DNA of 23,226 bases from a virus: IMG/VR virus record IMGVR_UViG_3300027580_000024, positions 1-23,226 of that record; one strand, written 5' to 3'. The translations under genes were made by a program, and so were the position numbers. This document shows, piece by piece, positions 608 to 21,198 of this stretch; the first letter of the stretch is position 1; every line of letters starts with the position of its first letter. The notes below the pieces were generated by a model. The model was given only the letters and a program-made list of their open reading frames with translations. It searched no databases and had not been told where the DNA came from.

Positions 608-1876
608 TTAGCTAGAATCGTTGTAGACGAAGCCCTCTTCGTACCTTACTCCAAAGTCTACTCCTAATAGGGCCTTGAACCACATCTGATTCTTTGTGAA
701 GGCATCAGCGGTCTGATCTGTTGTAGTGAGTTCCATAGCAGCATCCCTTGCAATTATTGCTTGACTCCAGTCACCAAGGAATAAGTCGTTATCCTGCACT
801 TGCTCGCTTACGATAACAGGAATGTCCATTAGTTGTTGTGGAGTACCGCCACCGCCTCCAGAAGAGAGGGGCCCCATAAAGATCATGTTGCCGTTTGAAT
901 CTTCCATCTTAAGTATTTTTGCACGTTCTGACTTGTTCATTACCCAAGCAGTTGGTGCGATGTGAGTTAGGTCTGCTTCTATGTCAATGACATGATCGGG
1001 ATCACTCATTGCCTTTGATGCTGTGTAAATATCAAAATCAAGCAGTCCATACGGCACATCAGAGTCTTCTACACCGCTTTCCTTGACTGATGTTCCATAG
1101 ATGAATGTCTCATCTTCCTTGAGAGCCATAGTCCTGGCCATATCATTCCTGATCATTCTCTCAAGGGAAGGTGTAGAGTGCCTGAGTGATTCCTTGCTAG
1201 CCTTTACGAGAGCACCTAGGTAATTAGGTCTCAATTTGATGTCCCCTGTTGCTAGATCTGACTCAGTTAGAGACTCGTTCTCTGCCCTCCAATAAGCTAT
1301 AGCACCGTTTTTCATCTTAGGAATATCGAGCTGACCTGATTCAGGTAAATCAAGGCTTGTTGCGCCCGCTGACTCTACAACTGACTCATTTCTTAGCAAG
1401 TCAATGAAGTCACCAGTTCTTTGAGGCTCTACAAGCGAACTAACCTGGTCTCCCTCAGATACAACTCGTGAATTAAGACCTTCTGTAGATTTCGTCATAA
1501 ACCTCTTAAATTCATCAGAGTCATGACCGAAATCTCTTAATTCTTTGTTACAAAGGTCATAAAGGGTTCGGGAATTGAACGGTAAGAGGAATCCTCCTTC
1601 CTTAGTCTGAAAACCAACATCTTCTTTAAGGATATCATTAATCCTCTTCTCGTGCTTAGCCTGACTCCAATCTTGATCAGCGATAGCCCTAAACATCCTT
1701 GTTAGGCTGAAGGGCCTGCTATTTAGGCTACTTTCACCTTCTCTGGTGGAAGGAGCAGTCTTAGGCACACCTTCTTCCTTACCTGCTTCTTGTCTCCCCT
1801 CTGGAGCATCTCGTGCCCCTTCCTCTTCCTCTTCTCCATCAAGATTCTTCAACTTTTCGTTTAGGTCGTTAACCAT
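608..1876 (-). CDS. Major capsid protein, HK97 fold family
   Basis: The 422-residue protein builds the icosahedral shell. The C-terminal two thirds has the pattern of phage_capsid family proteins: a region around residues 150-215 leading to a segment on capsid asymmetry and assembly, then a long E-loop/P-domain stretch and a C-terminal segment ending in FKALLGVDFGVRYEEGFV-like sequence. Residues 1-60 are extremely acidic, with five consecutive Glu near residue 15, and are low in complexity. Together with residues 60-125 they could be a delta domain removed by the neighbouring protease. It follows the protease gene by 25 bases. ATG 1876 is preceded by AGAGGTG. The assignment is strong from order (portal, protease, capsid) and sequence pattern. 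Confidence 0.9.
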   Translation of the reverse strand: MVNDLNEKLKNLDGEEEEEGARDAPEGRQEAGKEEGVPKTAPSTREGESSLNSRPFSLTRMFRAIADQDWSQAKHEKRINDILKEDVGFQTKEGGFLLPFNSRTLYDLCNKELRDFGHDSDEFKRFMTKSTEGLNSRVVSEGDQVSSLVEPQRTGDFIDLLRNESVVESAGATSLDLPESGQLDIPKMKNGAIAYWRAENESLTESDLATGDIKLRPNYLGALVKASKESLRHSTPSLERMIRNDMARTMALKEDETFIYGTSVKESGVEDSDVPYGLLDFDIYTASKAMSDPDHVIDIEADLTHIAPTAWVMNKSERAKILKMEDSNGNMIFMGPLSSGGGGGTPQQLMDIPVIVSEQVQDNDLFLGDWSQAIIARDAAMELTTTDQTADAFTKNQMWFKALLGVDFGVRYEEGFVYNDSS

Positions 1877-1901
1877 ATTACGACACCTCTTTTATTGTTT
1901 G

Positions 1902-2147
1902 TTAACTTAAGTGATCTAAAATCTTTTCTACAGCGTTGCTGAGTTTATCGACACGCTCGTTAAGCTCAATTAACTCATCCTCATTTCTATCTGACTTTGC
2001 CCAAGCATCCTCAGCATCGCTCTCGGCCTCACCAATCCTGCTCTTGAGACCCTCCAGATCAATATCATTTTCGACAAGATCAGAAACCCTCTGATCGAAC
2101 TCATCACCAATTTTCTCGGCAAGTTCACCCATCTCTTCTTCGGTCAT
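1902..2147 (-). CDS. Nested, in-frame scaffold protein (internal start in protease gene)
   Basis: An ATG at 2147-2145, in the protease frame, is preceded by TAAGGAGGT with ideal spacing, as strong as any site in the window. It would produce an 81-residue acidic, heptad-rich protein identical to the protease C-terminus. Lambda C/Nu3 and several HK97-like phages make their scaffold from such a nested gene. The small size, coiled-coil character and place just before the capsid gene fit a scaffold protein. The function is inference; the start signal is seen directly. Confidence 0.65.
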   Translation of the reverse strand: MTEEEMGELAEKIGDEFDQRVSDLVENDIDLEGLKSRIGEAESDAEDAWAKSDRNEDELIELNERVDKLSNAVEKILDHLS

Positions 2148-3212
2148 ATTTACCTCCTTAGACTTAGTATTATCTTCGTTCCAGGGTGCTGTTTCGTCCA
2201 TTTTATCGTAATACTTTTCTAGTTGATTCCTTATGGTACTCTTAGCATCCTCTGGAATATCACCCTGATCTAAATAACTTGCAACGGCATATATACCCCT
2301 ATCAGCAGCTTTAGGCTCTCCGTCGATAATATAGACATAGGGAAATGAGTAAGCAGTTTTGTTGTCAGATTCACTTTCATTGTACCAAAAGAACCCTTTC
2401 TTAAACTTGTCCCAATCTATATCCTCTTTATCGGGACCACCAGCCCAACGAGCAATTTGATCTCTGGCTCGACTCTCATCCCACTCGTCAACATTAGCAA
2501 TTGGGTGATCTTGGTAAGAAGGGACTGTCCGTATCTCTCTAAATGCGGCACCATCACCGTCTCTGTCTATATCATATTTGGTAGTCCCACTATCATATAA
2601 TTGCATGCCTCTTTCGTACTCGTGATCACCTTCACGTTTTAGGGGGTTAAAGTCAAGATAAAAGCTTGATGAACCACTGTTTTGTACGTCCCTAAATGTT
2701 TCTAATGCATCTGAGTTTCTAGCCAGGGCTCCAGAATTCGCAGGAACAGAAGTTAAGCTAAACTCCTTCATTTCCCATTTGGTAAACCTTAATATATCTA
2801 CATCATCAACAGTATCATCTTCCCACTCTAGAGGGACAAATCCAATAGAGTAGCCGTTTAACCAACCTTCTTTATACAGATTCCATACTTTGTCAGCAAG
2901 GTCTGATACACCTTCTGGTAAAAATCTCCATTCGGCTTCTATATTATTTTGATTCTGCACAACCTCATCTGTGTTGCCAATCAATGATCCAGAATCATGA
3001 TTAAATAGAACAGAAGCATAATTCATATAGCCAGACACACGTGCTCCATCAGGATCAACAATCGTGTTGTAAGCGTCCATCTGATCTGTACTGACGATAC
3101 CCCTTACCTTCCTTTCTTCCTCATCCAATATAGTCGGTTCTACCTGTACTGATCGCCATACACTATTACCATTCTCTTTTAATTTTTCTGGCTCTATTTC
3201 AAGCTGTTTCAT
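1902..3212 (-). CDS. Prohead maturation protease with extra C-terminal domains
   Basis: This is a serine protease of the HK97 prohead type, which cleaves scaffold and capsid N-termini during head maturation. Numbering from ATG 3212 (436 residues), the likely catalytic His is H72 in FNHDSG and the Ser is S122 in NGYSIGFVP, followed by the typical EFSLTSVPAN. Two additions follow: a domain at about 236-338 with WDESRA, FFWYN and LEKYYDKM, of a type I recall from other phage proteases, and a C-terminal acidic coiled coil from 356. ATG 3212 has a good GAGGTG site; a TTG at 3227 is in frame but is embedded in that site. A strong internal ribosome binding site marks a nested gene for the coiled coil. 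Confidence 0.88.
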   Translation of the reverse strand: MKQLEIEPEKLKENGNSVWRSVQVEPTILDEEERKVRGIVSTDQMDAYNTIVDPDGARVSGYMNYASVLFNHDSGSLIGNTDEVVQNQNNIEAEWRFLPEGVSDLADKVWNLYKEGWLNGYSIGFVPLEWEDDTVDDVDILRFTKWEMKEFSLTSVPANSGALARNSDALETFRDVQNSGSSSFYLDFNPLKREGDHEYERGMQLYDSGTTKYDIDRDGDGAAFREIRTVPSYQDHPIANVDEWDESRARDQIARWAGGPDKEDIDWDKFKKGFFWYNESESDNKTAYSFPYVYIIDGEPKAADRGIYAVASYLDQGDIPEDAKSTIRNQLEKYYDKMDETAPWNEDNTKSKEVNMTEEEMGELAEKIGDEFDQRVSDLVENDIDLEGLKSRIGEAESDAEDAWAKSDRNEDELIELNERVDKLSNAVEKILDHLS

Positions 3213-3351
3213 ACTAACACACCTCAAGTGATTATAGCCTGCGAGACAGAACTCCCTAAAAGCGGAGACCTATGATAGCCAATTACATTATAATGTAACC
3301 CAAACATGCGTAGGCATGGAGTTCGCCTATTTGCTCTGCTTTCCCCTGAAT
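3213..3351 (-). other. Structured intergenic element in the head operon
   Basis: This is the longest gap inside the structural operon (139 bases) and has no gene. It contains a perfect 16-bp palindrome, TTACATTATAATGTAA, at 3283-3298, a second hairpin CATGC-GTAG-GCATG at 3305-3317 region, and a distant pair GAACTCC (3249-3255) with GGAGTTC (3318-3324) that would close both into one branched structure. TATAAT lies inside the palindrome but has no -35 at 17 bp. A second TATAAT near 3230 also lacks a convincing -35. It could be an operator, a weak promoter or an RNA processing site. Confidence 0.5.
3283..3298. promoter_or_regulatory. 16-bp perfect palindrome, possible operator
   Basis: TTACATTATAATGTAA reads identically on both strands and contains a TATAAT box on each. 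Its neighbour upstream encodes a zinc-ribbon/HTH protein that could bind it, but this link is inference. Confidence 0.45.
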
Positions 3352-3726
3352 TTATTCAGAAGAAGACCGTCTTTCAAGGAATTCAAGTATTTGCACTGGC
3401 CTGAATCGCATAATTCTCTTCTCTTTACCAGCACCAACATTCACATACTCTAATTCACCCTGCTCAATCAGCTTACGTAACGTCTTTTTGCTACTAATAC
3501 CAAGAAAATCTAATAATTCCTCTGGCTCAATAAGGCGTGGGGTATCAAAAAATTCACTAAGGAATACTGATACTCTCAAATCCCTTATCAGTTTTCTCTT
3601 CCTCTCAGCTTCCCCCTTTATATTTGCCCCACACAACGGACATTCGTCATTTAAAATCTCGTCTGGACCAATTATAGGTACGGGATATCGACAATTAGGA
3701 CATACTATATGTGTTTTATTATCCAT
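3352..3726 (-). CDS. Zinc-ribbon plus HTH DNA-binding protein inside head operon
   Basis: The protein has 124 residues. C9-x2-C12 and C29-x2-C32 form a zinc ribbon. Residues 67-116 look like a MerR/excisionase-type winged helix (IEPEELLDFLGISSKKTLRKL), followed by a final helix. It is therefore a likely DNA-binding protein, perhaps a regulator or a packaging cofactor. Its start overlaps the portal stop by 8 bases, so it is translated together with the portal. A regulator between portal and protease is unusual. The structured gap just downstream is a candidate target. ATG 3726 follows a GGGGGA site. Confidence 0.7.
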   Translation of the reverse strand: MDNKTHIVCPNCRYPVPIIGPDEILNDECPLCGANIKGEAERKRKLIRDLRVSVFLSEFFDTPRLIEPEELLDFLGISSKKTLRKLIEQGELEYVNVGAGKEKRIMRFRPVQILEFLERRSSSE

Positions 3727-5143
3727 CCAAATCCCCCAATTTATTTTTTATATTCTTAAACATTTTTTTAGTTTGAGCATCTTGCGCATTCTGTGCCATT
3801 TCGCCTACATTCTTTCGCCATCGCTCCATAAGATCCTCTGCTTCTTTGGGGGACTTCTTCATCATTGTATCTACAGATAACTGTGGACCAGTTTCCTTAA
3901 CAGATGTAGGTACACTCCCCATAGGAACTAGATTGGCCTCAATAAATGCCGTCTGCCCGATCTCCTCATCATAAAACTCCTTCCCCCATATCATTTTTGT
4001 CGCCATATTTGGTGGTATTCCAGCAGCGATCATAGTTTTTTGCAGTTCTGCTTTATCTTGAACGAGTGGAACCAATGACTCGGACCCTAAAAAGTTAAAA
4101 TCGTATTTCAAATTGCTATTGGGCCAATACACATCTAATATATATTTTGTAAGCGACTCAGCTATCCTATTAGCCATAGGAATTATGACATTAAGATAAA
4201 AGTGCCTAGAAGCTTCCTTTGCGCTTGCAAATGTGGAATCCTCTTCACCTAATAGCGTTCCAGGTACTCCATATAATGATCTTATGTCTTCTTTTGTCAT
4301 CTCACGAGACTCTATAAACTGCATATCTTGCTGTGATAGTCCTATAGATTGCCACTCTACCCCACGTCCCAACACAGCAACCTTATGAGCATTATCAACG
4401 CCACGATGAGCCTTATTCCACCTCCTCTCCATATCATTCTTAGCCTCAGGATTCATTTGTTGGTCGCTAGTAAGTATCCCACCTGGGGCAGCTGAAGATT
4501 CGAAAAACTTTTGGTTGTAACTTACAGCCTTTTCATCCGCCGCAAGTTCTTTTTTCATGGACTGTAGCGGGGAAAGACCATAGAGCTTATCACTGGTTGA
4601 AACAAAGCGTAGGTGAGCAACCTCCTCTCTGTCTAACTCTATATTATCCCCACTAGAGGACTGATATTCGTAATAATCAACAAAACGATCTTTTCCAGGG
4701 ATTATCTCTATCTTAGACGGTGGTATTATAGGAATAAGCTGAGATGGCTTTATTGAAGTTCTGCCATCACCATATACTATTTTCTCTGGAACTATTTCAA
4801 TGAAACAATCGCCAGCCAGCAATAGATGTTTAGTAATAGATGATTTAAACTGTGTACTAGTCATATGCTCAGCTGGGTCATGAATAAGGTCCAAGGCGGG
4901 ATGGCTATCTACTCTATCCCCGTCTTGATATAAGGCTATTGGGGTTGATGCCAAAGCTTGTGCGATTTTGTTAACTGAGCTGTGAACATGAGCGTGTTTA
5001 CTATCTAATGTCTCTAGTTCCTCGTTGGCAAACTCTTCTTTTATGCCCCAACTGTAATTAGTAAAATCAGATAGATTAGCTATCTTGTTCTGCCTTTTCT
5101 CATATCCCATATTATTCGCCACTACACTAAAAGGATTTCTCAT
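3719..5143 (-). CDS. Portal protein, HK97 gp3-like
   Basis: The 474-residue portal forms the ring at the head vertex through which terminase pumps DNA. Typical family elements are visible: HVHSSVNKIAQALAS near 50-65, DPAEHMTSTQFKS near 90, the LLLAGDCFIEIV segment, VAHLRFVSTSDKLYGLSPLQS near 170-195, and GILTSDQQMNPEA and SREMTKEDIRSLYGVP near 215-295. Length is normal for the family, with a charged C-terminal tail. ATG 5143 has a GGAGGAAATT leader. The gene starts 12 bases after the preceding coiled-coil gene. Confidence 0.93.
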   Translation of the reverse strand: MRNPFSVVANNMGYEKRQNKIANLSDFTNYSWGIKEEFANEELETLDSKHAHVHSSVNKIAQALASTPIALYQDGDRVDSHPALDLIHDPAEHMTSTQFKSSITKHLLLAGDCFIEIVPEKIVYGDGRTSIKPSQLIPIIPPSKIEIIPGKDRFVDYYEYQSSSGDNIELDREEVAHLRFVSTSDKLYGLSPLQSMKKELAADEKAVSYNQKFFESSAAPGGILTSDQQMNPEAKNDMERRWNKAHRGVDNAHKVAVLGRGVEWQSIGLSQQDMQFIESREMTKEDIRSLYGVPGTLLGEEDSTFASAKEASRHFYLNVIIPMANRIAESLTKYILDVYWPNSNLKYDFNFLGSESLVPLVQDKAELQKTMIAAGIPPNMATKMIWGKEFYDEEIGQTAFIEANLVPMGSVPTSVKETGPQLSVDTMMKKSPKEAEDLMERWRKNVGEMAQNAQDAQTKKMFKNIKNKLGDLDG

Positions 5144-5155
5144 AATTTCCTCCGA

Positions 5156-5476
5156 CTATTCATTCCATCGGTTCTCTTCCAATTCCTCCAACATATCTAC
5201 TATTGATCGTGCATCTTCATCCTTTTCCATCATAATATCAAAAGCTCTAAGGAACTTACTAACATCTTCTGAACTTGCTTCGCCAAATCTCCCCTTGACA
5301 CGCTTAACTTCTTCCTTGCTCAATTTTCCAGAGAAGTATGCCAATATTGTATAATAAAAAACACCAATTGTGTCTATTTTCTTTTCTAGTTCCAAAACTT
5401 TCATATTCAGGCTATCTATCGCTTCGTTTAACTCTACAAAATCACGATAATCAGTTTGTTGCTCTTCATCTTCCAT
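5156..5476 (-). CDS. Small acidic coiled-coil protein between terminase and portal
   Basis: This is a 106-residue acidic protein. Residues about 10-40 form a heptad pattern, then come a short hydrophobic stretch (FYYTILAYF) and a helical charged C-terminus. I do not recognise a family. ATG 5476 overlaps the stop of the membrane protein gene (TAATG) and has a GGGGGAG site, so the TTG 21 bases further upstream is unlikely to be used. The gene lies in the packaging cluster and could be a portal- or terminase-associated factor, but this is position only. Confidence 0.6.
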   Translation of the reverse strand: MEDEEQQTDYRDFVELNEAIDSLNMKVLELEKKIDTIGVFYYTILAYFSGKLSKEEVKRVKGRFGEASSEDVSKFLRAFDIMMEKDEDARSIVDMLEELEENRWNE

Positions 5477-5703
5477 TATAGAACTCCCCCTAGCCAATTG
5501 CCAACTGCAATACTTGCTATAACTATACCAACAGCAACCTCTATCCAGAACAATAATTCGCTAAAAGTAAAGAATCTTTTGTTAAAATCCTTTAAACCTT
5601 CGCTATCAACGGTAAAAACAATATACCAAGAGTATAAACTTAACAGAATGAACGCTAGAAAGAAAAATCCTGCAATAAATTCTTGAAAGAATGAAATTAA
5701 CAT
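5476..5703 (-). CDS. Two-helix small membrane protein in packaging cluster
   Basis: A 75-residue protein with hydrophobic segments at about 10-30 and 49-72, separated by a charged loop (EGLKDFNKR). Size and topology are compatible with a class II holin or another small phage membrane protein, but holins have no reliable signature and no endolysin lies beside it. Its stop overlaps the next start. The leader before ATG 5703 carries a GGGGGG-type site. Confidence 0.6.
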   Translation of the reverse strand: MLISFFQEFIAGFFFLAFILLSLYSWYIVFTVDSEGLKDFNKRFFTFSELLFWIEVAVGIVIASIAVGNWLGGVL

Positions 5704-5718
5704 AATACCCCCCCCATA

Positions 5719-7353
5719 TTAAACAAAGAATAGGTTTTCTGATGGGTCTAAACCTTTGTCAGCTCCCATTAGAGATATAACATAGGAGTCACAAAAGTCA
5801 AATGAATTATTCTTGTCCTTACTAATTCTAATTTTATCATTGTCAGTGCTTTCGTATGATTGGCTTAATACCTGCCTTCTCAGATTACGTTCTTCTGGTA
5901 TTGCCTCTACCCCATTTAGAATACGTTTCCTCATCTGAAAGAATACCCATGATTTTAAGTTTAAGTATCTCTTTGGCTCTGCTGGTGCAGTATCACTAGG
6001 CCAATAGTCGTTGCAATATATGTTTTCAGCTCTTAGCTCGTTCGCCACTGCTTTACCCAGACCTGGTGCATCAACCCACACCCTAACATCGTAATCCCTT
6101 TGTTCGAACCAGTTTACTTCATCGAGCACGGCATCTACTAGCTTATCAGTAGAGCATACATAGCTTCTTTGTCCCAATAGTGTGTTTATCCATCGGGCAG
6201 ATATAACACTTTGGTCCTGCCCCTCGTCAGCGACATCTACGCTAAGAACTACTACATTCTTTTTGCCAGCGTCGGGGCCAACTAATAAATCATTTGCTTC
6301 GTCCTTAAGATCATATTTTATAATGCCAGCCTCAGGGTCATCTTGTTCATAATCGTCCCTACTATTTTCATCGTTCCCCTTCTTTTGTCCATATGCGAGA
6401 CGATATTTTCTCCACTTCCTATATTGCTCAGATTCATCATCCTTTGGTTTTTCACTAATATAAGCTCCTTGAGCCTTGGCAAAATCTTCTTCTTTATGCT
6501 CTGGCGTAAAATCAACCTGTGCTCGGTTGTCAACCCAATTATACAGGCTTCTCGGTAAGAACCTAACTCTTCTTTTCCATCTTCTTTGCGCCATATCAAC
6601 GGATGATGGAACAAATACATTATCTGATAATAGACTCTCTACAAATTCCCCCTTATACTCAGCTCTAAATATTGGCTCTGGCATCTCCTCTTTAGCCTTC
6701 TTATATCTTGAGTCAGGGAAGAATGGGTTTTCAGCGCTAGAGAAGACCTGCATCTCTATATCAGAGTCCCCTTCCTGATATGGTTTATATATACGATCAT
6801 ATATCCAGTGATTAATTAATTGATTTGGGTGTGGAATTAATCCAGCAAGAAACAGCGTTCCCTCCATAACTGCCGTCCTTTCTAGGGCAATATCAATTAA
6901 TCTCTCTGGTACCTCTGAAATCTCATCAATCATTACCCCAGGTGTAGTAACGGACTGGAATCTTTCTGGATTTGAGGCTGAGAAGTAACGAAGCTTGGCC
7001 TCATTGATGAAGGTTAGCTCATGAGAGGACTTGTTCCATGCATCAGGTTTGGTGGGGTCATACAATCCAAAAGCTTTTGTGATGCTTTTGAGTTTTGGTA
7101 TGGCGGCTGCTTCTAGTTGCCCGAAAGATGGTGCTAATAAAAAGAACCGCTCTCCAGGGTTTTCTGCTATGACAGTTGCCAACCCCATAAGAGCAGCGTA
7201 AGTCTTCCCGCTTTGGACACCGCCAATAGCAACTACAACTCTTTTTCGTGACTCTACTATCTTTTTCTGCTTCGGCAGTACCTTTATTTCCTTAGCGCCA
7301 TCCTCAGCTTCTTCAGAATAAACTGGATTACTCTTAACTTGACTTTTTACCAT
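5719..7353 (-). CDS. terL: Terminase large subunit (packaging ATPase and nuclease)
   Basis: The 544-residue motor packages DNA into the prohead and cuts it. Walker A is GGVQSGKT at 44-51 and Walker B is GVMIDEIS at 139-146, with the catalytic Glu after the Asp. The RNase H-like nuclease domain shows acidic residues in SVDVADEG (D373), VWVDAPG (D428) and SFDFCDS (D519/D522). Between the two domains (about 280-360) lies a highly charged, Asp-rich stretch that seems longer than usual. The start overlaps the preceding stop, with no obvious ribosome binding site, so translation is probably coupled. Confidence 0.95.
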   Translation of the reverse strand: MVKSQVKSNPVYSEEAEDGAKEIKVLPKQKKIVESRKRVVVAIGGVQSGKTYAALMGLATVIAENPGERFFLLAPSFGQLEAAAIPKLKSITKAFGLYDPTKPDAWNKSSHELTFINEAKLRYFSASNPERFQSVTTPGVMIDEISEVPERLIDIALERTAVMEGTLFLAGLIPHPNQLINHWIYDRIYKPYQEGDSDIEMQVFSSAENPFFPDSRYKKAKEEMPEPIFRAEYKGEFVESLLSDNVFVPSSVDMAQRRWKRRVRFLPRSLYNWVDNRAQVDFTPEHKEEDFAKAQGAYISEKPKDDESEQYRKWRKYRLAYGQKKGNDENSRDDYEQDDPEAGIIKYDLKDEANDLLVGPDAGKKNVVVLSVDVADEGQDQSVISARWINTLLGQRSYVCSTDKLVDAVLDEVNWFEQRDYDVRVWVDAPGLGKAVANELRAENIYCNDYWPSDTAPAEPKRYLNLKSWVFFQMRKRILNGVEAIPEERNLRRQVLSQSYESTDNDKIRISKDKNNSFDFCDSYVISLMGADKGLDPSENLFFV

Positions 7354-7592
7354 ATTTCAGCAATATCTACTAGATCATGTGATATATCTTTAATTTCTTT
7401 TCTAACTTGCGTATTCTCGGTATCTATGTCAATATGATCAGCTTGCCTTAACTCCTCTAGCAAAATATCTGTAATTAAATCTTCTTCTTCCAACAATAAT
7501 TTTGTTTTTAGCTCTCCCTCACTTGCATCATCTTCTTCTATATCTGGCACCATGCCTCCATAATGCCGCAAAATGTCAATCTTAGGATTCAT
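7347..7592 (-). CDS. Small acidic protein between the terminase genes
   Basis: An 81-residue, strongly acidic and helical protein of unknown family. ATG 7592 overlaps the previous gene by 11 bases and follows GGTGAGG at short spacing; a GTG at 7601 in the same frame is a less likely start. Its stop overlaps the terL start. The position suggests a packaging helper, without sequence proof. Confidence 0.6.
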   Translation of the reverse strand: MNPKIDILRHYGGMVPDIEEDDASEGELKTKLLLEEEDLITDILLEELRQADHIDIDTENTQVRKEIKDISHDLVDIAEIW

Positions 7593-8475
7593 TCTCCTCA
7601 CCTGTTATATCTATTGTACTAGCCTCATCATCGCTCCCTCTATCAGCTTCATCCATTATATCAAATCTTATATTTTGAGTAATAACTCCCCCTTCAGGCT
7701 TATCCTCTTGTTCTGGTTTGTTACTCGGGAGATCCTTAATCATATCTGCTATTTTGACAACAGCATCTATTCTCTGGTCTATGCTATCGTACTCTCCCCC
7801 TTCAGACCCAACTCTATCAAGAACGTGATCAATTAATTTTGATGCCACTCCTTCAAGCTCACTAACTATATCCCAATACATCTTCTGCTTTACCAAGCTA
7901 AAAGCTTCTTTATCCTCTATAGCTGACCAATATCTTTTTAACTTGGGCACATCTATCCTTATATCATGCTCCTCTCTCAATTGTCGTTTAGTCTTGCTCC
8001 AATTTGGGGCTTCCTTACCTACTGGATCATAGTTATCCATTAGATAAGTCATTATTTTACGTACTTGATCTACACTTCTGGCCTCAATATCACTACTAAC
8101 ATATCTAGTTGGTATGTTCAACTCTTCAAGCTTATCCTCTGGTATTAGTTCCTCTTTATCAGCTATTTCTTCAAGCTTATCTTTAGAGTAATAGCCATCT
8201 TTGTTTCGTCGCTCTTCGAATTTCTCCTGTTCCTCCTCACTCATATCTTCATACTCCCTTAATAAACGTCTTGCTTTTGATCTAAGAGCAGACCTACGCT
8301 TTTTCTCGTTCTCTACGATCTCCGATAATATAAACTGTTCATATAGTGTTGAAAAGTTATCTAGATTATTTAAGTATCTTTGAACTCTTTTTGACTTCTC
8401 GTCCTCTCGGGTATTGTCTATCATCTTTTGGCAACGCCTCACCCGTTCCCCCACACTCTGGACATGGTTCCCCAT
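7582..8475 (-). CDS. Probable terminase small subunit
   Basis: A 297-residue, very charged, mostly helical protein upstream of terL, the usual place of the DNA-recognition subunit. I see no certain HTH; a candidate is around residues 155-185 (NWSKTKRQLREEHDIRIDVPKL). The N-terminal half is coiled-coil rich and the C-terminal 45 residues are an acidic tail that could contact TerL. The start is uncertain: ATG 8475 has a GGAG site six bases away but overlaps the zinc-ribbon gene by 110 bases, while ATG 8424 gives a shorter overlap but a poorly spaced site. The function rests on gene order. Confidence 0.6.
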   Translation of the reverse strand: MGNHVQSVGERVRRCQKMIDNTREDEKSKRVQRYLNNLDNFSTLYEQFILSEIVENEKKRRSALRSKARRLLREYEDMSEEEQEKFEERRNKDGYYSKDKLEEIADKEELIPEDKLEELNIPTRYVSSDIEARSVDQVRKIMTYLMDNYDPVGKEAPNWSKTKRQLREEHDIRIDVPKLKRYWSAIEDKEAFSLVKQKMYWDIVSELEGVASKLIDHVLDRVGSEGGEYDSIDQRIDAVVKIADMIKDLPSNKPEQEDKPEGGVITQNIRFDIMDEADRGSDDEASTIDITGEENES

Positions 8476-8677
8476 CTATTTCTCCATGTCCACCACACTT
8501 ACTACAAATAGAACGATTCCAGTTCTTGCTCATACTAGGCTTTTCGCCCTCCCTTGATTGGATTATATTAGATAACACTTCACCAAGTTTGTTAAGGTCG
8601 TTAGTTAATTGCTTACGTGATAGATCGTGTTCGCTCACCTCAATCGCACCTCTTTCTTTTTCAGTATTATCGTGCAT
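8366..8677 (-). CDS. DnaJ-type zinc-ribbon protein, first gene of late operon
   Basis: A 103-residue protein. Residues 58-80 read CSKCGGHGE...CPECGGTGE, two CxxCxGxG motifs as in the DnaJ zinc domain, so it should bind zinc. The N-terminal 50 residues are a charged helical region. The J-domain itself is missing. ATG 8677 follows GGAGAG by four bases, and that site begins only nine bases after the CCA end of the tmRNA, with no promoter between. It heads the terminase operon. It may be a chaperone-like or nucleic-acid-binding helper; the exact job is unknown. Confidence 0.7.
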   Translation of the reverse strand: MHDNTEKERGAIEVSEHDLSRKQLTNDLNKLGEVLSNIIQSREGEKPSMSKNWNRSICSKCGGHGEIDGEPCPECGGTGEALPKDDRQYPRGREVKKSSKILK

Positions 8678-8693: not shown

Positions 8694-9024
8694 TGGTGGA
8701 GGTGTGGGTATTCGAAACCCAGTCCTCCAGTTAGCTGTACACCATCTACAGGTTTATGACGTGTTTAATTCCCTGGAGCCTCCCACGTCAAGGAGTCACT
8801 CCAGCAAAGTCCACTAAATGTCGATCTCATCCCGTGGACGTGAAATGAGACCCAAATAGGTATTCTATGTTACTGAACTAACCCTACCCATGTAAGTTAG
8901 AACAGCAGCGGCTAAGACTACCTTAGCAACAAATGTTTTAATTAGTTTTGCGTCTAATTGATGGCAGTAAGTTGCCAACTACCTGCAAGGCTTCACACTA
9001 CTGAAGTCGAAGCCAGTCACCCCC
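8694..9024 (-). ncRNA. ssrA: Transfer-messenger RNA (tmRNA), phage-encoded
   Basis: tmRNA rescues stalled ribosomes by acting first as alanyl-tRNA and then as mRNA for a peptide tag. This 331-nt gene is complete. The 5' end GGGGGTGACTGGCTTCGAC is the classical start. The 3' end forms a T arm (TGGGT-TTCGAAT-ACCCA), an acceptor strand CACCTCC, then A and an encoded CCA. The acceptor helix has seven pairs, with a G3-U wobble, the alanine identity mark. H-type pseudoknots are visible: TCTCAT/ATGAGA with GTCCAC/GTGGAC, and CTGGAG/CTCCAG with TGACGTG/CACGTCA; a weaker one uses CTAAC/GTTAG. The resume codon is probably GCA at 8951-8949 (context TTAGAC-GCA, like TAGTC-GCA in E. coli). The tag frame is unusual; see findings. 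No smpB gene is in the window. Confidence 0.95.
8865..8951 (-). other. tmRNA tag reading frame
   Basis: From the GCA resume codon the frame reads AKLIKTFVAKVVLAA for 15 codons (to 8907). This is the same length and ending as the B. subtilis tag, which also ends in LAA. Instead of a stop, 13 more codons follow (AVLTYMGRVSSVT) before TAG at 8867-8865. The other two frames stop within a few codons. A hairpin GCTAAG-GTAGT-CTTAGC matches helix 5; its loop holds a TAG, but in another frame. Confidence 0.6.
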
Positions 9025-9035
9025 ATACAAAAATA

Positions 9036-9064
9036 AGTATAACACATCGACAGGTGTTTGTCAA
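9036..9064 (-). promoter_or_regulatory. Promoter of tmRNA and late operon
   Basis: TTGACA (9064-9059), 17-bp spacer, TATACT (9041-9036). The start point would fall a few bases before the mature tmRNA 5' end, leaving a short leader for RNase P. The spacer carries AACAC-N8-GTGTT, a possible operator. No second promoter was found before the terminase genes. Confidence 0.85.
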
Positions 9065-9163: not shown

Positions 9164-9192
9164 TTGACATTGCTACATTAATTTGTTATAAT
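9164..9192 (+). promoter_or_regulatory. Consensus promoter for OB-fold gene
   Basis: TTGACA at 9164-9169, a 17-bp spacer and TATAAT at 9187-9192: a perfect sigma-A/sigma-70 consensus, 34 bases before the ATG at 9226. Confidence 0.88.
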
Positions 9193-10268: not shown

Positions 10269-10695
10269 AATCCCTCCACATTTCTAAACTAGCCTTAGAT
10301 AAAAGTTCGGTCCATGTCATGTCCATATCTTGCGCTATCTTTTTAATTGTGGCATACCTGGGCATTTTTAATCCCCTTTCGACCTCTGATACTGTCCATA
10401 TAGACATGCTAAAATCTTCCTGAATCATATCTAGTTCTTTGCGTTTTTTCCGTATAGCCCGTCCTATGCCATTCCTAGCACTTTCAGCTAACTCCTCCAT
10501 CCCATCCTGTCGTGGTAAACTTCTATCATTTAAGTATCTGATGAATACCGTAGATATTTCATCACCATTAACCTTAACTGTTGTATTATCAACGAGCTCT
10601 ACGTCTTCTCCACGGACAAAACCATATTTTATATCGTGAAACTTTATAAGGGCACCAGGTTCCAATCTTTTTACCGAAAGGGCATCATCCACCAT
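10258..10695 (-). CDS. XRE-family repressor-like regulator
   Basis: A 145-residue protein. Residues 77-132 are a Cro/C1-type HTH (IGRAIRKKRKELDMIQEDFSM... TVSEVERGLKMPRYATIKKIAQ). The N-terminal 60 residues form a small beta-rich domain (ALIKFHDIKYGFVRGEDVELVDNTTVKV) of unknown role, perhaps for ligand or dimer contacts. ATG 10695 is chosen because GGTGG lies nine bases upstream; a TTG at 10701 is too close to it. The gene is divergent from the nuclease, and its start codon overlaps the nuclease promoter -35 box, so autoregulation and control of the nuclease are likely but inferred. Confidence 0.75.
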   Translation of the reverse strand: MVDDALSVKRLEPGALIKFHDIKYGFVRGEDVELVDNTTVKVNGDEISTVFIRYLNDRSLPRQDGMEELAESARNGIGRAIRKKRKELDMIQEDFSMSIWTVSEVERGLKMPRYATIKKIAQDMDMTWTELLSKASLEMWRDYDE

Positions 10696-10723
10696 TGACA
10701 AACACCACCTAATATGTTATAAT
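10695..10723 (+). promoter_or_regulatory. Consensus promoter for nuclease gene
   Basis: TTGACA at 10695-10700, a 17-bp spacer and TATAAT at 10718-10723. It begins with TTGACAAACACC, the same 12 bases as the tmRNA promoter, and its spacer has AACA-N10-TGTT arms. It overlaps the divergent regulator start. Confidence 0.85.
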
Positions 10724-20490: not shown

Positions 20491-21198
20491 TTAACCCCCC
20501 ATATCTATTATAATCTTATCGCCAGTAATTGACATTAATAGCTTTTCAACTATCTCACGATCAGCTTCTTCAGGGAGAACTGAGTTTTCGTAAGCCTGAT
20601 CTGCTTTTTCCATCCAAATATCAAACTCATCCCTTATCCATTCTTCACTTGTATTACCTTTTCTGATCTCAATAAGCTCTTCTGCATCATCCCTTTGTAC
20701 ATTAAGTTCGCCAGTTTCTAAAAATTCTGTTCCCATTCTAAGTAGACGAATGGCGTGCATAGCGTTCTTCCAGTCGCCACCCTCAAATCTTCCTAACTGA
20801 GAACGTGCGTACCCTACAAACGAATCGTATACCCCTTGAATGCTTAAGAATTTATCCATTCGACACCTGATTAGTAGTCCCTTGACGGTGTGAAAGTGCA
20901 ACATATTATAAGGTATACCAAGCAATGTCAACACATTAGGGTTTGAGTCTAGCAGTAACTTAAAGAATTTTCTGACCTCATAAAATATCATATCATAATC
21001 GCCAATTTCTTTTTCAATAGTCTCCTTCCCACCGCCAAGGCCGATGTAATGTTCCTTAGGGGCCACAAAGGTTCCGATGAGGTCTATATCACTTTCCCCC
21101 TCTACATAAGTTCCTATTGCTTTACTCCCCCTATACCCCATAAGGATTAAATCATCTGGAAATATATCATCTGGTATATGTTTTCCATCTATGATCAT
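20491..21198 (-). CDS. Predicted nucleotidyltransferase (DNA polymerase beta-like)
   Basis: 235 residues. GYRGSKAIGTYVEGESDIDLIG (GS at 24-25, D37 and D39) is the Gly-Ser...DxD signature of the minimal nucleotidyltransferase superfamily, and the helical half with MHAIRLLRMGTEFLETGEL matches the RlaP/YcgL-like group (PF10127) often present in phages. It presumably transfers a nucleotide to an unknown target. GGGGG precedes ATG 21198 and a promoter lies 24 bases upstream. Confidence 0.85.
   Translation of the reverse strand: MIIDGKHIPDDIFPDDLILMGYRGSKAIGTYVEGESDIDLIGTFVAPKEHYIGLGGGKETIEKEIGDYDMIFYEVRKFFKLLLDSNPNVLTLLGIPYNMLHFHTVKGLLIRCRMDKFLSIQGVYDSFVGYARSQLGRFEGGDWKNAMHAIRLLRMGTEFLETGELNVQRDDAEELIEIRKGNTSEEWIRDEFDIWMEKADQAYENSVLPEEADREIVEKLLMSITGDKIIIDMGG

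Follow-up and report, generated by a model that had tools for sequence, protein, structure and literature searches.

The window analysed in this study is the whole of a linear IMG/VR virus record of 23,226 nt, which is viral throughout and may be a fragment. On its minus strand, at 8694..9024, lies a one-piece tmRNA (ssrA) gene of 331 nt with an encoded CCA end. tmRNA is a bacterial RNA that releases stuck ribosomes; in this record the gene heads a TerL-portal-capsid cluster, with packaging and head genes (608..8475) downstream on the same strand. The next gene (8366..8677) encodes a 103-aa protein with CXXCXGXG zinc motifs, read from the sequence, and is followed by genes for a 297-aa protein without a PHROGs family match (7582-8475) and, as assigned by PHROGs, for the large terminase TerL (5719-7353), the portal (3719-5143), the head protease (1902-3227) and the major capsid protein (608-1876), all on the minus strand. 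The zinc-motif gene and its downstream neighbour share up to 110 nt, read in different frames, and a later start of the zinc-motif gene would shrink the overlap. Elsewhere the record encodes ThyX, a dCTP deaminase-like protein and an SLT transglycosylase. An RlaP-type nucleotidyltransferase (PF10127, 'RNA repair pathway DNA polymerase beta family') is encoded at 20491-21198 (minus strand) and possibly has an RNA-repair or tRNA-related role. We found no SmpB gene in the 23,226-nt record, and SmpB must therefore be supplied by the host.

The portal and major capsid protein are remote from those of known phages (about 25-30% identity). BLAST with the neighbourhood or with the tmRNA itself, run against phage and plasmid sequences, gave nothing meaningful and showed no DNA similarity to any phage record, and exact patterns of the tag region and of the 5' end had zero other matches. 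Searches with TerL and the portal yielded, apart from remote matches, a single near relative (L002), a 4.6-kb strain variant of the same virus that is 99.3% identical and does not include the tmRNA. The initial annotation had described the tmRNA as carried by a phage, and this holds: the gene sits inside a viral genome and not in flanking host DNA, and TerL, portal, protease and major capsid genes follow it on its own strand. A piece of host chromosome carrying its own ssrA was rejected as an explanation, given that viral structural genes adjoin the tmRNA and the record is viral. An ssrA fragment left by integration was rejected as well, the gene being full length and mid-record, with no integrase among the proteins scanned, which take in only part of the small ORFs.

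Structure of the tmRNA gene

The Rfam tmRNA model RF00023 matched the minus strand at 9024..8694 with 103.1 bits (E 1.3e-39), well above its curated gathering cut-off of 47 bits, and the match spans model positions 1-374 of 374 without truncation. Ten other viral tmRNAs scored between 76.6 and 194.6 bits with the same model. The covariance-model check that the initial annotation had proposed is thus significant, and its placement of a complete tmRNA at 8694-9024, for which it gave no strand, agrees with the model hit to the nucleotide. The word 'complete' is right for the structure and location, but the mRNA-like part lacks the canonical short Ala-ending tag. We conclude that the gene, its structure and its coordinates are real.

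With nt 1 of the tmRNA at window position 9024, the 5' strand of the acceptor stem (GGGGGUG, nt 1-7; 9018..9024) places G3 opposite U325, and the 3' strand (CACCUCC, nt 321-327; 8698..8704) is followed by A-CCA at 8697-8694, as seen in the sequence and the covariance-model alignment. A G3-U pair in the acceptor stem is the mark of alanine acceptors. The T arm (UGGGU-UUCGAAU-ACCCA, nt 304-320; 8705..8721) was found in the sequence and in the helix list. All alanine-identity features are therefore present in the sequence and the alignment (G3-U, T arm with loop UUCGAAU, encoded CCA end), and the wobble pair, T arm and CCA named in the initial annotation can be read directly. The RNA folds with a z-score of -4.2, and 0/100 shuffles were as stable. 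The pattern used puts the spacer between the acceptor stem and the D-loop motif at 6 nt, which is among the shorter lengths seen; the same length occurs in 19/194 viral tmRNAs among the matches listed.

Whereas tmRNAs typically carry four pseudoknots, the evidence for each of the four regions differs here when judged against 300 dinucleotide shuffles. PK3 (11 bp + GUCCAC/GUGGAC, 11+6 bp, nt 173-216; 8809..8852) and PK4 (CUGGAGU/GCUCCAG + UGACGUG/CACGUCA, 7+7 bp, nt 221-268; 8757..8804) were each equalled by 0/300 shuffles; both are clear and beyond chance. The initial annotation had counted at least two clear H-type pseudoknots. PK2 (CUAACUU/GGGUUAG + AUGGGUA/UACCUAU, 7+7 bp, nt 125-169; 8856..8900), for which 17/300 shuffles were as good, is likely a genuine pseudoknot. 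The PK1 region (nt 42-63; 8962..8983) forms either a plain hairpin or a cramped pseudoknot; with its cramped loops and 17/300 shuffles as good, it is weak and doubtful as an H-type pseudoknot.

ARAGORN reported no tmRNA in the window. We compared this with 193 other distinct viral tmRNAs from two IMG/VR pattern scans; among the matches listed, ARAGORN also misses 6/193 of them. Its silence here is consequently no argument against a tmRNA, and we rejected it as counter-evidence.

Resume codon and tag frame

The resume codon is GCA (nt 74-76; 8949..8951), placed by the covariance-model alignment and by the conserved A at -4 in the preceding UUAGAC. This A is kept in 111/113 distinct viral tmRNA segments among the matches listed, and the equivalent A86 of E. 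coli is an experimentally known determinant of the frame (PMC2481249). A perfect 6-bp inverted repeat, AAUUAG/CUAAUU (8940-8960, minus strand), is predicted to form around the codon, which sits in its 8-nt loop.

Translation from the resume codon gives a non-canonical tag ORF of 28 codons and a UAG stop (8865..8951), AKLIKTFVAKVVLAAAVLTYMGRVSSVT, ending in Thr. tmRNA tags normally stop in helix 5, and a canonical degradation tag is short and ends in a hydrophobic residue followed by Ala(-Ala). Helix 5 is present (GCUAAGG-UAG-UCUUAGC, nt 98-114, from the helix list; 8911..8927), but with the resume codon as frame 0 its UAA falls in frame 2 and its UAG in frame 1, so that the tag frame stays open through helix 5 into PK2 and meets its first in-frame stop, a UAG, at nt 158. 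Neither the stop in helix 5 nor the alanine ending of a canonical degradation tag is thus found. Reading the 28-codon frame requires that helix 5 and PK2 unfold. An open run of this length has a chance probability of 0.21, and on this ground we rejected the long frame as a sign of a selected long tag.

Among the matches listed, 185/194 distinct viral tmRNAs end their tag in xAA plus a stop by a mechanical test. The nine that do not are the tmRNA of this window and eight others, and on inspection these eight either carry A-ending tags (...VLSA, ...PAVA, ...YAFA, ...YAMA, ...RRVA) or lie outside the limits of the test (e.g., ...FQLAAA, ...QLKAA). An Ala-ending tag is therefore present in 193/193 other viral tmRNAs among the matches listed and absent here. 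Long tags do occur, as in a viral tmRNA of another record (L046:2493-2810, plus strand), whose 33-aa tag ends in FQLAAA. The present tag does not have the usual short degron ending, and it is doubtful that it serves as a degron. The tag may be truly abnormal, or its region may contain one indel that arose by mutation or in assembly; telling the two apart takes more than one sequence.

Promoter and transcription

A sigma-70-type promoter (TTGACA-17-TATACT, 11/12 match by promoter scan; 9036..9064, minus strand) lies 11 nt upstream of G1. Promoter matches of at least 11/12 at this place were found for 6/192 viral tmRNAs among the matches listed, this one included. Downstream, only 16 nt separate the CCA end from the start codon of the zinc-motif gene, with an AGGAG ribosome site between them and no terminator predicted in this gap. 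Having its own promoter and no predicted terminator before the next gene, the tmRNA probably serves as a stable RNA and at the same time leads the packaging/head transcript, from which RNA processing would release it. The initial annotation had offered action late in infection as one possible role, which is unsupported because the promoter is of the host sigma-70 type.

The gene upstream of the tmRNA is divergent and has a perfect promoter of its own (9164-9192, plus strand). This is one of two perfect 12/12 sigma-70 promoters (TTGACA-17-TATAAT, with TG before the second hexamer), the other being at 10695-10723 (plus strand), and their sequences point to a bacterial host and to transcription by the host polymerase. 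Most predicted proteins of the record are strongly acidic (pI 4-5) and codon use is rich in AGA/AGG and ATA, which only hints at a salt-adapted, Firmicute-like host.

Proposed role and comparison with known tmRNAs

We consider the gene a real and probably expressed phage tmRNA. That the tRNA-like domain, PK2-PK4, the resume site and the promoter are all intact speaks for a working RNA. Its own strong promoter would be used by host-type RNA polymerase, probably giving a packaging/head operon transcript with the tmRNA as its 5' leader, from which host RNase P and enzymes of 3' processing would cut the tmRNA free. Host alanyl-tRNA synthetase would then load alanine onto the G3-U acceptor stem. 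With SmpB from the host, the RNA would enter ribosomes stalled on broken mRNA, take over the nascent chain and resume at GCA. Since the frame runs 28 codons to UAG without an Ala-Ala end, the useful product may be freed ribosomes rather than efficiently degraded proteins. To this overall reading, a one-piece phage tmRNA that would recycle ribosomes with host SmpB and for which degradation tagging is doubtful, we give roughly an even chance. The same picture would be expected from an indel in the tag region, natural or technical.

Unless assembly introduced a single indel within about 30 nt, the abnormal tag argues for a copy that performs poorly in degradation tagging. Retagging of stalled phage proteins for destruction, another role raised by the initial annotation, is likewise doubtful in the lack of a canonical short Ala-ending tag. 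A more specific form of the ribosome-recycling reading, possible though somewhat unlikely, is that the degradation tag has been lost or replaced by a long basic, hydrophobic tail while the rest stayed intact, so that ribosomes would be recycled without marking proteins for proteolysis. Phage lambda-immP22 needs only ribosome release from tmRNA, and neither frame choice nor proteolysis (PMC2481249), and tag-less tmRNAs are known from mitochondria and phage DS6A (PMC11915505, PMC4131195), which makes rescue without degradation plausible.

An ordinary tagging tmRNA whose short tag ends within helix 5, disguised by a single-base assembly or sequencing error, would account for the UAA and UAG in the stem and loop of helix 5, which are usual for tmRNAs even though they are out of frame here; in a few tag frames the authors of the tmRNA database likewise note what look like frameshifts (PMC11915505). 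Such an error is made less likely by the larger genes of the contig, which have uninterrupted frames and align with their families over the full length, and by the strain variant L002, which over its 4.6 kb shows no coding frameshift against the contig; helix 5 also pairs well as it is. On balance we regard an error as unlikely. A phage tmRNA in decay or with a broken frame, left with no tagging function, would fit the abnormal tag frame, the weak PK1 and the short acceptor/D spacer, but decay should also strike the acceptor stem, T arm, PK2-PK4 and resume site, all of which are intact, and the promoter, which is near consensus, and we judge it quite improbable. We think it highly improbable that the RNA inhibits host trans-translation by acting as a decoy for host SmpB or stalled ribosomes. 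Phage DS6A has little beyond the tRNA-like domain, and a molecule resembling it is a strong tmRNA inhibitor (PMC4131195; PMC11915505); unlike DS6A, however, the present RNA keeps pseudoknots, a resume codon and an in-frame stop, which would be superfluous in a decoy.

Compared with the bacterial one-piece tmRNA (ssrA, RF00023), the phage gene shares the full model, G3-U, T arm, CCA, GCA with A at -4, helix 5 and PK2-PK4, and differs in its 28-codon tag without Ala-Ala, its unclear PK1, its short acceptor/D spacer and its carriage by a phage. As a class, phage tmRNAs are well known, and what is new here is one from an orphan virus with one tag oddity. The initial annotation fairly called them uncommon, but they are not rare, with 402/18,146 phage genomes carrying one (133 unique tmRNAs; PMC9004378) and at least 194 distinct viral tmRNAs, this one included, among the matches of the two IMG/VR pattern scans. 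Like the tmRNAs of mycobacteriophages Bxz1 and Wildcat, Bacillus phage G and phage Melnitz, this is a complete tmRNA in a phage, but it differs from them in its atypical tag and in having no DNA similarity to phage records. As in Melnitz (PMC9004378), it stands directly after a promoter; it is one-piece, the Melnitz tmRNA two-piece. Like the mitochondrial, DS6A and Nasuia tmRNAs, it offers no readable canonical degradation tag; in those a tag frame is or may be missing, whereas here the resume site and an in-frame stop remain.

If the tag is truly without a degron, this virus would offer a natural test of whether a phage tmRNA serves ribosome release or protein degradation. A phage catalogue that relies on ARAGORN alone would lack this tmRNA.
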